Position numbers and translations under genes: made by a program. From IMG/VR virus record IMGVR_UViG_3300035701_000346, positions 1 to 21,184 of that record: a stretch of DNA of 21,184 nt. The stretch is one strand, 5' to 3'. This document shows positions 3,378-20,296 of this stretch, piece after piece (within the stretch, counting starts at the first letter, position 1; the number at the start of each line of letters is the position of its first letter). This DNA comes from a virus. Below the pieces are notes generated by a model. The model saw nothing but the letters and a program-made list of their open reading frames with translations. It was not told the DNA's origin and made no database searches.

Positions 3378-4730
3378 TTAAGTGATAGCAATTAGTGGAA
3401 TACCATACTGTTGAGTACCAATTAGCACTTTCAGATATGGTACATTTGCTACTGTTACACTGCAGCCACTTGATACAAAAGGCTCAAGTGCAGCCATTGT
3501 AGAATCAAAATATATCAGCTGACTCCATCCACTAGATGTCGTTCTAAAGCCAGCCCAGGCCTTCGGCTTGCTCCCACCAGTCGTGCTATAAATGGTATAC
3601 TCAAGAGCGCCAGTTGCATTAACACCATATAACTGGTTATCCAACCATATAGGAGCAACAGTTGCACTTGCATTGATAGTACTACCATCAATAGCAGTGA
3701 CTTTAAACCAGCCCCCAAACATTAGACCACTGGCCGGTATATGTGATCCAGTATTAAATAACTGAGCAATGAACTCACAGCCCTTGACATTTGCAGGTCC
3801 AGTTGCATCTGCATGAACCTCGGCAAGGCCAGCAATAGGAATTATTCCCTTTGTACCAGTCGTCTTTAGGCAGGCAAAAACTGCTCGATCATAGCTCGAT
3901 CCATCCGCTGAGGTTTCCATATACAGTCTAATTAGGCCAGACTGTGCCTCAACTGCATGTGCTAAAGGCACGTCATAAGTTCCACACCTAATAAGGCATG
4001 GTCCAGCAGACCCTGTCGGTACGTAGGTAATACCTGAGAAGTCAATCACGTTACCCACAAAAGCGCCGCTAAAGCCAATACCAGTCGTCAGTGTACCAGT
4101 ATTTTCTATCCTGATACCATAGTCTACAGTTGCCGCACCCCACTGTGTCAAAAGCAGAAGTGCAGATAGTCCACTAGAAAGTGCAACTCCTCTCACTGAG
4201 TTTCCCCAAAGTGAAGCTATATACTTAGCAGCTGTCAGTGTGCCCCCAACACAGGAGCCAACTTCACCATATGCACCGACTACACAAACGCCAGTTCCAC
4301 TCAATATGCCAGCTACATTTGCAGAGAACGCTCCACCAACAAGCCAACTTGAAGTTGCTAAAGCTCCAGATAGCGTCTTTGCTGAATCCAGATAAGCAAC
4401 ACCAAGGATAGCTCTCAACACACCAGTTCCACTTGCAGCCATATGAAAGTGAGATGCAATCCCGTCCATACTTCCAATAGTATCCTTGAACTCACCTTTG
4501 AACTCATTGGCTACAACCTGGTCAGTTGCAAGTGTACTTGACGCTGCCAGCTGATGACAGTGGGCTTTAATAGTCGGCCCAGTATTTGCAGCTTTATTAA
4601 TATATAAAGCTGTACCTGTGACTGAGGTATACGCAATCCTCAAGTTTCCATCGAACTGTAGTGCCCCATCATACACACCTTTCTTAAAAAAGCTATAAAG
4701 CTTTCTATCCAAACTAGCTCCGACTCCCAT
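3378..4730 (-). CDS. Large beta-rich putative structural protein, 450 aa
   Basis: I choose ATG 4730 (MGVGASLDRKLYSF) because GAGGAGGAG lies just upstream; the longer frame would put the SD inside the gene. The protein is rich in Gly, Ala, Ser and Thr with few charged residues and no membrane segment, typical of virion surface proteins. It starts with a short helical, charged part and then repeats Gly/Ser-rich beta stretches. It lies between scaffold and capsid genes, so a capsid decoration protein, head fibre or minor head protein is plausible. I do not recognise a named family. The C-terminal third has several GxF and Trp-rich turns that could be a carbohydrate-binding fold, but this is speculative. 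Confidence 0.75.
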   Translation of the reverse strand: MGVGASLDRKLYSFFKKGVYDGALQFDGNLRIAYTSVTGTALYINKAANTGPTIKAHCHQLAASSTLATDQVVANEFKGEFKDTIGSMDGIASHFHMAASGTGVLRAILGVAYLDSAKTLSGALATSSWLVGGAFSANVAGILSGTGVCVVGAYGEVGSCVGGTLTAAKYIASLWGNSVRGVALSSGLSALLLLTQWGAATVDYGIRIENTGTLTTGIGFSGAFVGNVIDFSGITYVPTGSAGPCLIRCGTYDVPLAHAVEAQSGLIRLYMETSADGSSYDRAVFACLKTTGTKGIIPIAGLAEVHADATGPANVKGCEFIAQLFNTGSHIPASGLMFGGWFKVTAIDGSTINASATVAPIWLDNQLYGVNATGALEYTIYSTTGGSKPKAWAGFRTTSSGWSQLIYFDSTMAALEPFVSSGCSVTVANVPYLKVLIGTQQYGIPLIAIT

Positions 4731-4749
4731 TTTACTCCTCCTCAAGATA

Positions 4750-4774
4750 GCCGAACCGCCTTAACAGCGTCGGC
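4750..4774 (-). promoter_or_regulatory. Short GC hairpin between scaffold and 450-aa gene
   Basis: GCCGA and TCGGC form the ends of a 25-base stem-loop, with partial GC pairs inside, in the 48-base gap after the scaffold stop. No U tract follows it in the leftward direction, so it is probably an mRNA processing or stability structure if it has any role. Confidence 0.25.
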
Positions 4775-4778
4775 AAAA

Positions 4779-5567
4779 CTAAATTAAATCCGCGATTTCT
4801 TTCTCCAACGCAGTTTCAACAGGCGCTGGTTCTTGTGGAGTTCGCGCTCCACCTTTTTTAGGCGGCTGTGCAGGTCCCTTAACAGGTTGCACTACTGCCT
4901 CTTTCAACCCAATCCTCTTCCTCACTTCTTTTGGAAGTTCTTCAAACAACTTTGCCAACGTCCAGTCAGGATTCTTTCCACTCAGATCATTAGATACATA
5001 GCCAACAAACTCTTTATTGTCTTTCAGATCATCATTGTCTTTATAAAAGGCACTGGCTAGTGTCTGAACTTCCATCTGCGCTTTTATAGTGTTATTGATA
5101 ACCTGCGGCAGCGTCTTTAAAATTGTCTGTACTGCATGTGTACTTACGCGCCCCATTACTTCTGCCATAACCTCAGGCTTCTCAAAAGCAGCTTCATACT
5201 CTGCCCTGTCTTTAAAAAAGCCTAAACTAAAAGCTGTATCAGCAGGTTTTGCAGGCTCTGCAGGCTTCACTGGTTCAGCAGGTTTCGCTGCTGATAATGC
5301 CTTCACCTGATCAATGAGAGTCTTAACCTGATCTGTCAAAGTTGCAATCGCTACATCTTTCTCATCTTTAACAGGCTCTACCACTGCAGGTTCAACTGGC
5401 TTAACTGGCTCTGCTGGTTTAGCTGGCTCAGCAGGCTTAACAGGGTCAGCTACAACAGGTTCTACTTTCGCTGGTTCCGCTGCCACAGGAGCATAATCAC
5501 TGAAGATTTCCCCAATCTGATCAACCTGACTAACAACTACACTATCACTTCCATCTTTATCTGCCAT
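4779..5567 (-). CDS. Probable scaffolding protein, 262 aa
   Basis: The protein has the usual features of a phage internal scaffold. It is acidic, with long Pro/Ala/Lys/Glu/Val low-complexity repeats (residues about 30-65 and 95-110) around a heptad-like stretch (ATLTDQVKTLIDQVKALSAA, about 74-93). A helical C-terminal half ends in a Lys-rich PPKKGG segment and a final helix (VETALEKEIADLI). It lies between portal and capsid, the standard place. ATG 5567 overlaps the stop of the upstream 91-aa gene (ATGGCAGATAA), with GGAAGAG upstream as part of that gene. No protease motif is visible. Confidence 0.75.
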   Translation of the reverse strand: MADKDGSDSVVVSQVDQIGEIFSDYAPVAAEPAKVEPVVADPVKPAEPAKPAEPVKPVEPAVVEPVKDEKDVAIATLTDQVKTLIDQVKALSAAKPAEPVKPAEPAKPADTAFSLGFFKDRAEYEAAFEKPEVMAEVMGRVSTHAVQTILKTLPQVINNTIKAQMEVQTLASAFYKDNDDLKDNKEFVGYVSNDLSGKNPDWTLAKLFEELPKEVRKRIGLKEAVVQPVKGPAQPPKKGGARTPQEPAPVETALEKEIADLI

Positions 5568-16040: not shown

Positions 16041-16064
16041 CTATGTTTGGGATTTTGAACATAG
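16041..16064. repeat. 24-bp palindromic element, copy 5 (control region)
   Basis: The arms read CTATGTTTGGG and TTTTGAACATAG on the top strand, so the conserved GTTCAAA arm is on the right, opposite to most copies. Flanking bases extend the pairing to 28 (16039-16066). It is not next to an SD. Confidence 0.8.
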
Positions 16065-16309: not shown

Positions 16310-16341
16310 GAGTGAAAAATAGGGAGTAGGTAAGCAGCCGA

Positions 16342-16476
16342 ATGACCTCAGCCGTATGGGGGATGATGAAATGGACGCGCTGCCACTGGGCGAAACCTAA
16401 AAATACTGAATGTCGACTTTGTGGGTTAGACACCTACATCAACCAAATTAAGTGGAGGTGTCAATCATGGACTTAA
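16342..16476 (+). CDS. Putative zinc-ribbon microprotein, 44 aa
   Basis: The frame from ATG 16342 reads MTSAVWGMMKWTRCHWAK and contains C14, C24, C27 and C40, a spacing (C-x9-C-x2-C-x12-C) that could bind one zinc. An AGGGAGTAGG lies about 11 bases upstream; a shorter form starting at the internal Met-Met after GGGGG is possible. It ends inside the next gene, overlapping by 10 bases. The first arm of the 30-base inverted repeat lies in its codons. It follows promoter P2 directly, but the ribosome site is not ideal, so it could be non-coding leader. Confidence 0.45.
   Translation: MTSAVWGMMKWTRCHWAKPKNTECRLCGLDTYINQIKWRCQSWT
16407..16436 (+). repeat. Left arm of a 30-base long-range inverted repeat
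   Basis: Pairs with 16847-16876 across the 123-aa gene. With G-U pairs allowed in the rightward transcript all 30 positions pair: 25 Watson-Crick and five G-U. It lies upstream of the SD of the 123-aa gene and does not cover it. Confidence 0.75.
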
Positions 16477-16838
16477 ATGAGAAACTCACAGGCGTAGTCA
16501 GAAGTATTTCTGCCAGCATCGCCCCTGGACTCGATGCTGAGGCAAAGTCCCAATCCAAAACGTTCGACCTTGAATTTGACCTCTCGAATTGCAGCATTGA
16601 GGATGTAATTGATCTCGCATTACGCCCCAGAAGGATAACATGGCAGAATGCAAACCGATACAATAAAAAACTGGCCGAACTCGGCTCAATAGTGCGGATT
16701 GTAGTGAAACCCATTGGAATAAGGGAAACTAAGGAAGTTTCAGTAGACGATATGATTAAAAGGGCGAACAGACTATCGCCCGAAAAACGAGCGGAATTCG
16801 CCGCTAAACTGGCCGGTCTAATGGCCGAAAACGAGTAA
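16467..16838 (+). CDS. First large right-arm gene, unknown, 123 aa
   Basis: I choose ATG 16467 (MDLNEKLTGVVRSISAS), six bases after a strong SD (GGAGGTG); the longer frame starts inside that SD. The middle (FDLEFDLSNCSIEDVIDLAL...ITWQNANRY) recalls a small phage protein family of unknown function, and the C-terminus is a charged helical segment, LSPEKRAEFAAKLAGLMAE. That C-terminal pattern is repeated in the 120-aa gene at 19934. The protein is soluble with no signal or membrane segment. Two tandem strong promoters drive it, and 30-base complementary arms flank it, so high and specially controlled expression is likely. Confidence 0.8.
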   Translation: MDLNEKLTGVVRSISASIAPGLDAEAKSQSKTFDLEFDLSNCSIEDVIDLALRPRRITWQNANRYNKKLAELGSIVRIVVKPIGIRETKEVSVDDMIKRANRLSPEKRAEFAAKLAGLMAENE

Positions 16839-16846
16839 CAAAATAC

Positions 16847-16876
16847 TGGGTGTCTGATCCATAAAGTCGATATTCA
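16847..16876 (+). repeat. Right arm of the 30-base long-range inverted repeat
   Basis: Begins nine bases after the stop of the 123-aa gene and pairs with 16407-16436 over its full length. All five differences between the arms are transitions that become G-U pairs only in the rightward RNA. Confidence 0.75.
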
Positions 16877-16909
16877 AACAACTTCTGTATCGTTGTATCG
16901 TTATATACG

Positions 16910-17082
16910 TGTATCCTCCCCCCCATTTGTGCATGGTATGTGAGCATAGGGCGCACATGGCGTGGTGTAGGTGTCTTTCTTAAAAAAAAAAAATAAAAAA
17001 AGAAACACCTACACAACCACAACTACACACCATATGTGTAACTGTGCTCACGGGTTTGTGGGATGGGGCGGGGGAGGATACA
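16910..17082. repeat. Nested inverted repeats around an A tract
   Basis: TGTATCCTCCCC (16910-16921) is complementary to 17071-17082 (12 bp), GTGAGCA (16940-16946) to 17045-17051 (7 bp), and GTGTAGGTG (16965-16973) to 17006-17014, followed by TTTCTT/AAGAAA. The A tract is the loop. A rightward terminator is unlikely because the loop, not the 3' side, holds the homopolymer; it would be U-rich only in a leftward RNA. Confidence 0.7.
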
Positions 17083-17115
17083 ACGATAAAGCGATAAATA
17101 GATACTTGTATCTAA

Positions 17116-19933: not shown

Positions 19934-20296
19934 ATGGAAGTAACAGCGACCGTTCCCAAGCTGGACAATCTAGAAGTGGTAGCAGACGTGACTCTCGGTG
20001 CAGACCTTGATGAAGCTGTTGCCCTCACCAGCAAAGAGATCGTCTATAGCATTTATTTAGCTGAGGCGATTATCAAAGCACAGGCTATAATGCGAGCATT
20101 AGCCTTGAAAGGTAAGACTGCGGAAGAGATTAAGGAAGTTATGGGTGACTGGAAACCAGGCGCGAGTCGTATTACTGGTGAAGCTAGTCTCGGCTCCCTC
20201 TTGAAGAAATTCGAGAAGCTGTCTCCTGACAAGCAGAAAGAGTTGATCGCCAAGTTGCTGGCATCCTCAAGTGATGAAAACGAGGCAGTGGAATAA
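19934..20296 (+). CDS. Unknown protein, 120 aa, C-terminus like the 123-aa gene
   Basis: ATG 19934 has a clear SD (AGGAGGTAGG). The N-terminus is beta-type (MEVTATVPKLDNLEVVADV), then helical (IYLAEAIIKAQAIMRALAL). The C-terminus, LKKFEKLSPDKQKELIAKLL, matches the end of the 123-aa gene (RLSPEKRAEFAAKL) in spacing and in most positions. Either they share an ancestor or both carry the same small interaction segment. The family is unknown. Two hairpins follow the stop, the second an intrinsic terminator. Confidence 0.75.
   Translation: MEVTATVPKLDNLEVVADVTLGADLDEAVALTSKEIVYSIYLAEAIIKAQAIMRALALKGKTAEEIKEVMGDWKPGASRITGEASLGSLLKKFEKLSPDKQKELIAKLLASSSDENEAVE

Follow-up and report, generated by a model that had tools for sequence, protein, structure and literature searches.

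A leader-trailer helix enclosing the first early gene of an uncultured phage lineage is a candidate long-range translation switch

We describe a long leader-trailer helix that encloses the first early gene in a lineage of uncultured phages, and we favor, on balance, the view that it serves as a cis-acting long-range translation switch for this gene. The whole analysis is computational and starts from a 21 kb IMG/VR virus fragment (21,184 nt, hereafter the window). In the window, a left (5′) arm (16407-16436, + strand, TGAATGTCGACTTTGTGGGTTAGACACCTA) and a right (3′) arm (16847-16876, +, TGGGTGTCTGATCCATAAAGTCGATATTCA), located 8 nt past the stop codon, flank the first early gene, which encodes a protein of 123 aa (16467-16838, +). 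In the + RNA, the arms pair at all 30 positions through 25 Watson-Crick and five G-U pairs, with an abrupt loss of pairing at either end; the arm coordinates, pair counts and gene reported in a first-pass annotation of this DNA were all exact on re-checking. Just 5′ of the stem, the sequence displays two perfect sigma-70-type promoters, P1 (16219-16247, +) and P2 (16281-16309, +), each reading TTGACA-17-TATAAT with 12 of 12 consensus matches, and the P2 transcript is expected to start near 16316. The minimum free energy (MFE) fold of this transcript, a check that had been suggested along with the stem, contains the arm-arm helix (z=-3.1).

The stem stands apart from the rest of the window. It is the sole G-U-tolerant stem of at least 18 bp within 2 kb on the + strand, while the minus strand of the window holds two 19-bp G-U-tolerant stems with merely 13 and 11 Watson-Crick pairs. 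The predicted energy of the arm duplex is -47.5 kcal/mol for the + RNA vs. -29.4 for the minus RNA, and the best flanking stem score reaches 64 for the enclosed gene vs. 13.6-19.8 for the other genes of the window. Scanning the window and the locus against Rfam returned nothing relevant. A direct repeat, AAAATACTGnnTGTC, is found just 5′ of both arms (16400-16414 and 16840-16854; 13/15 identical).

To look for relatives, we searched with the 123-aa protein alone, which retrieved two contigs, a 99% twin of the window (L003) and one at 67% identity (L019/L086); a search of genome contigs with the same protein gave no match. L003 is the nearest relative, and its arms are identical to those of the window and in the same orientation, so that it adds no information. 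The L019/L086 contig has a 31-position stem of wholly different arm sequence around the same gene, which is the first sign of covariation. A terminase search gave many more relatives, together with eight contigs filed under bacterial or archaeal genomes that are probably phage contigs in metagenome bins. We scanned 6287 ORF-stops for a stem between the upstream and downstream flanks of every ORF, scoring G-U and A-C alike, and found 28 stems around the first early gene or genes, read away from the terminase, in 25 phages. These stems span about 12-37 bp and their arms are unrelated in sequence between relatives; the median length is 25 bp (39 loci). The other high scan scores correspond to the same stems on the opposite strand, to operator-like palindromes and to a few isolated cases (L148 at 9173, L201). 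Several phages carry tandem stem-enclosed genes, each with its own stem, namely three in L167 (minus strand, 4128-5362) and two in L144, as well as in L100 and L148.

Some contigs are closely related to one another. Since the first set was gathered by looking for stems, its count is biased; an unbiased test was provided by a held-out set of 76 further loci from a different terminase alignment, in which homologues were chosen with a profile of the enclosed protein before their flanks were examined. The results show a stem in 12 of the 13 homologues, with scores of 29-62 vs. a 99th percentile of 25 among 221 control genes, one of which reached a score of 50. The 13 include L294, already present in the first set as L103; L249 is a near-twin of L096. 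The remaining homologue, L296, has no stem, a point against the proposed switch. More homologues with stems are present in the first loci, including that of Desulfofustis phage LS06-2018-MD01 (15 bp, one G-U), the nearest of the named phages, none of which gave a DNA match or a close protein match to the window. The enclosed gene of this phage (OP947158.1, 42356-42817, +) is unannotated, short CDSs on the opposite strand having been called instead. Pairing is thus kept around a homologous gene by arms of entirely different sequence, and the comparisons identify the stem as a conserved feature of this uncultured phage lineage.

The enclosed proteins belong to one highly diverged family of ~100-160 aa, as indicated by pairwise BLAST links and a profile, for which comparison with Pfam and PHROG gave no convincing match. 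The 123-aa protein of the window was modelled as an alpha/beta fold (mean pLDDT 77, pTM 0.45), and the structure model gave no fold match. A few tandem stem-enclosed ORFs (57-69 aa) fall into other families or are unassigned. The argument developed below is independent of what the enclosed protein does. A 120-aa protein encoded elsewhere in the window (19934-20296), at a gene without an enclosing stem, is weakly related to the C-terminal part of the enclosed protein (43% over 35 residues; E=8e-7 in a two-sequence profile search).

The differences between paired arms are themselves informative. Read on the coding strand, those of the 28 stems comprise 72 G-U, 20 A-C and 18 transversions (p=5e-8), with 23 loci having more G-U than A-C and two the reverse, and those of the held-out stems comprise 18 G-U and two A-C; L102 shows two A-C differences and zero G-U. 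The first-pass annotation had reasoned that chance transitions would preserve pairing in the window about once in 32, an argument that is right for a single locus and that extends across the lineage. Its proposal of selection on the transcript is now strongly supported, both by the retention of the stem while the arms turn over and by the 72:20 bias on the coding strand. As an alternative, it had raised a DNA-level inverted repeat, either a segment that can invert or the terminal repeats of a small element, and the arms are indeed 83% identical when aligned in this way. Repeats acting as DNA predict equal numbers of G-U and A-C differences, so that the observed 72 vs. 20, a strand-specific bias seen throughout the lineage, leads us to reject this explanation, to which we leave hardly any chance; moreover, the arms keep one orientation in the window and L003, their sequences vary among relatives, and what they enclose is the lineage-wide first early gene, of one protein family, and no insert. 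The suggestion of a circularised RNA found no support. The earlier interpretation is partly supported, and it had overlooked two elements described below, the Shine-Dalgarno partner of the left arm and the boxA of relatives.

The Shine-Dalgarno of the enclosed gene, GGAGGTG (16454-16460, +), is overlapped by AGGTGTC (16456-16462), which is complementary to GACACCT (16429-16435, +) at the inner end of the left arm. This putative anti-Shine-Dalgarno can pair with 16456-16462 or with the right arm, so that the left arm has two mutually exclusive partners. Matches between left arm and Shine-Dalgarno are also found in L119 (ACACACCT/AGGTGTGT), L161 (TGCACCT/AGGTGCA), L102 (GCACCT/AGGTGC) and L148 (TCTCCTG/CAGGAGA), and none was found in L012 and L162. 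Pairing of the inner 16 nt of the left arm with its own start region scores -10.6 kcal/mol, compared with -7.3±0.45 kcal/mol for other loci's, none of 20,000 permutations being as good (P<5e-5), and the outer end of the arm gives little signal (-7.2 vs. -6.5). The result for the inner end and its own Shine-Dalgarno was replicated in the held-out loci (-9.2 vs. -5.95±0.68); over all 39 loci, pairing of left arm and Shine-Dalgarno scores -10.2 vs. -6.1±0.3 for shuffled arms, and 246 ordinary genes from these phages show hardly any such signal (-4.4 vs. -4.05).

We then computed the cost of opening the Shine-Dalgarno in the equilibrium folding ensemble, which ignores ribosomes and is a rough guide to nascent RNA in the cell: the median falls from 7.1 kcal/mol in the absence of the right arm to 2.95 in its presence, and is 7.25 when the right arm is shuffled. 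In the window, adding the right arm lowers the cost from 8.6 to 4.1. The drop exceeds 0.5 in 20 of the 28 loci (p=4e-5); the right arm gives no clear drop in the other eight, and it raises the cost in L013 and L100. In the held-out loci, the cost falls from 5.4 to 2.8 when the right arm is present (p=0.02). The median distances, 10 nt from the stop codon to the right arm and 25 nt from the end of the left arm to the start codon, are such that the helix can persist while the gene is translated, except at termination. There, the ribosome should unwind the inner end of the right arm, possibly creating an opposite, “off,” phase.

Part of the lineage carries, in addition, a boxA. The motif TTGANAANNGAATA, frequently in the form GTTCTTTGANAANTGAATA, lies within 45 nt 5′ of the left arm in 11 of the 28 stems, and only two further matches to it occur in 760 kb of these loci (13 in total). 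In L148, the second copy comes with a boxA of its own and, 3′ of the right arm, a terminator-like hairpin. In Clostridia-phylum genomes, the exact boxA pattern gave one match with no rRNA found beside it, and the rrn leaders were therefore examined directly; a boxA-type motif, e.g., GATCTTTGAAAACTGAACAACG or GTTCCTTGAAAACTGAACAGC, is located 94-184 nt before 16S, with a clear match in most, not all, of the 18 leaders examined. A strict boxA is absent from 17 of the 28 stems, including that of the window, where no canonical boxA was found and TACTGAAT is the sole resemblance, and L165 is likewise. The place occupied by boxA in many relatives, such as L008 (90% terminase identity), corresponds in the window to a 5′ leader (16318-16406, +; 3′ end ...GGGCGAAACCTAAAAATAC), which is common to the window and L165 (minus strand): GGGAGTAGG.AAGCAGCCGAATGA...GCTGCC.CTG.GCGAAACCTAAAAATA. 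This shared leader is perhaps another antitermination element. Its local fold in the window is no better than that of shuffles, and we accordingly do not claim it as a structured RNA; a pattern search with it matched the window's near-twin alone. Nus factors may thus well be involved in the part of the lineage that has boxA, and their role is uncertain at the window, whose leader, shared with L165, has no canonical boxA.

The model that we infer, and which covers the folding order, the effect on translation, Nus binding, protection from Rho and RNase III cutting, is as follows. During transcription, the inner end of the left arm would pair with the Shine-Dalgarno, which would thereby be masked. 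Once the polymerase has passed the stop codon, the right arm would emerge and the stronger arm-arm helix would take the left arm, freeing the Shine-Dalgarno, such that translation would be restricted to complete messages with an intact 3′ flank; the direction of the switch in vivo is likewise inferred. Rho attacks untranslated nascent message, and Nus factors guard against it. The presence of boxA makes sense in this model because a nascent message left untranslated would otherwise be exposed to Rho. In relatives with boxA, NusB/NusE would be recruited just 5′ of the left arm, where they would shield the untranslated RNA from Rho and retain the left arm at the RNA exit for as long as the right arm is still to come, as proposed for rRNA operons. 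Such a completeness switch is the simplest account of the helix, the anti-Shine-Dalgarno and the boxA. More tentatively, and at a confidence that falls somewhat short of even, we suggest that a lineage-wide class of phage mRNAs copies the plan of rRNA operons (boxA, leader strand, trailer strand), with an end-to-end completeness check that delays translation, thereby uncoupling it from transcription, and Nus factors that counter Rho.

The same helix might instead be mainly an RNase III processing site, at which cleavage would free the message of the first gene from the remainder of the early transcript and define its ends and its lifetime, with the Shine-Dalgarno complementarity being secondary. 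It is a long, nearly perfect double-stranded RNA, a boxA followed by an enclosing helix copies the layout of rRNA operons (PMC10250234), and RNase III cleaves the base-paired 5′ and 3′ UTRs of icaR (PMC3868564). Processing alone leaves unexplained why the inner end of the left arm matches its own Shine-Dalgarno, and in L012, L016, L096 and the second copy in L148, a terminator-like hairpin directly follows the stem, leaving little to separate. We consider this reading unlikely as the main role of the stem; cutting of such helices by RNase III, one of the options named in the first-pass annotation, is itself plausible, and could coexist with an unchanged switch.

Terminator-like hairpins, which often lie directly after the stem, would fit with a stability element, in which the helix, which closes both ends of the unit in all loci, would mainly shield the message against exonucleases. 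However, transcription seems to continue into downstream genes in the window and in many relatives, making the right arm internal, and a need for stability does not predict the Shine-Dalgarno complementarity, which makes this role improbable. We attach as little weight to the idea that the enclosed protein binds the stem or the leader and represses or antiterminates its own operon, as an N-like or autogenous regulator. In lambda, N lies next to nutL, and here too a first early gene, nearly always of one protein family, adjoins boxA; yet the arms of homologues differ completely in sequence, and no RNA-binding fold or family was found for the protein.

In the hok mRNA of plasmid R1, pairing between fbi and tac gives a full-length fold that is translationally inert, and 3′ trimming activates it. 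As in the phage element, pairing of the 3′ end with the 5′ leader determines the structure of the Shine-Dalgarno; the sign predicted for the phage is the opposite, the predicted opening cost falling when the 3′ arm is present. Systems of the hok/sok type comprise a small membrane toxin and an antisense RNA, neither of which was seen here; the phage protein is modelled as a 123-aa alpha/beta fold. In E. coli rrn operons, boxC, which contributes to the 5′ strand of the 16S leader-trailer helix, follows boxA after 18-19 nt. Tethering by NusB has been proposed to retain this strand at the RNA exit while the trailer has yet to appear, and to aid helix formation (PMC10250234). In 11 of the 28 phage stems, a boxA-like motif likewise precedes the strand that pairs with the trailer, and the phage element has a helix of more than 17 bp formed from both sides of the enclosed RNA, its length in the window (30 bp) being similar to that of the E. 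coli helices (about 30 bp for 16S and 27 bp for 23S; PMC10250234). In contrast to rRNA leaders, it encloses a protein-coding gene, has no Rfam match in the window, uses its 5′ strand also as a predicted anti-Shine-Dalgarno, and lacks a strict boxA in the 17 cases mentioned above. In the icaR mRNA of Staphylococcus aureus, pairing between the 5′ and 3′ UTRs blocks translation and creates an RNase III substrate (PMC3868564). There too, long-range pairing between both UTRs of one mRNA affects access to the Shine-Dalgarno, but the anti-Shine-Dalgarno of icaR is in the 3′ UTR, whereas that of the phage is in the left arm, 5′ of the gene, and the phage 3′ pairing is predicted to open the Shine-Dalgarno rather than to block translation. 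The E. coli suhB leader is similar in that a boxA in the leader of a protein-coding mRNA affects translation, boxA-bound NusB/E being thought to block the ribosome itself (PMC5725501), and differs by having no leader-trailer helix. The phage element is thus a member of none of the rRNA leader, icaR and hok systems.

Bacterial mRNAs are normally translated while they are being synthesized. If the model is true, a conserved element that conceals the start site as long as the 3′ flank has not been made would be a clear exception to this coupling, the rRNA-type design of boxA and leader-trailer helix would gain a protein-coding use, and the tethering model for rRNA could be tested on a small reporter. 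The stem element occurs commonly across a large lineage of uncultured phages. Its arms change entirely in sequence without loss of pairing, and for this reason searches for RNA families based on sequence miss it.

Directly 3′ of the stem, the window contains a large imperfect hairpin with an A-rich loop (16887-17105, +), which is very strong (z=-8); its arms are of the C-run/G-run type, its loop contains A12TA7 and its base carries TATCGTTG-like repeats. It is possibly a replication origin or a structured RNA. L019, L091 and L012 have similar large hairpins 3′ of the stem, and A-rich loops follow C-runs in L119 and L161; in a pattern scan for the downstream hairpin, one of 46 matches was real, on the contig of L003. 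Within this hairpin, TGGTGTAGGTGTCT (16963-16976) shows complementarity at 13 of 14 positions with the inner end of the left arm and could be a third partner of this arm; the complementarity is lost in L019. The window also contains intergenic operator- or stoperator-like palindromes, CTATGTTCAAAATcATAAACATAG, at 16041, 16086, 17113, 17501, 18178 and 19602, and G003 carries its own version of this palindrome, CCTTTGCTCAAAATTTTAAACAAAGG.
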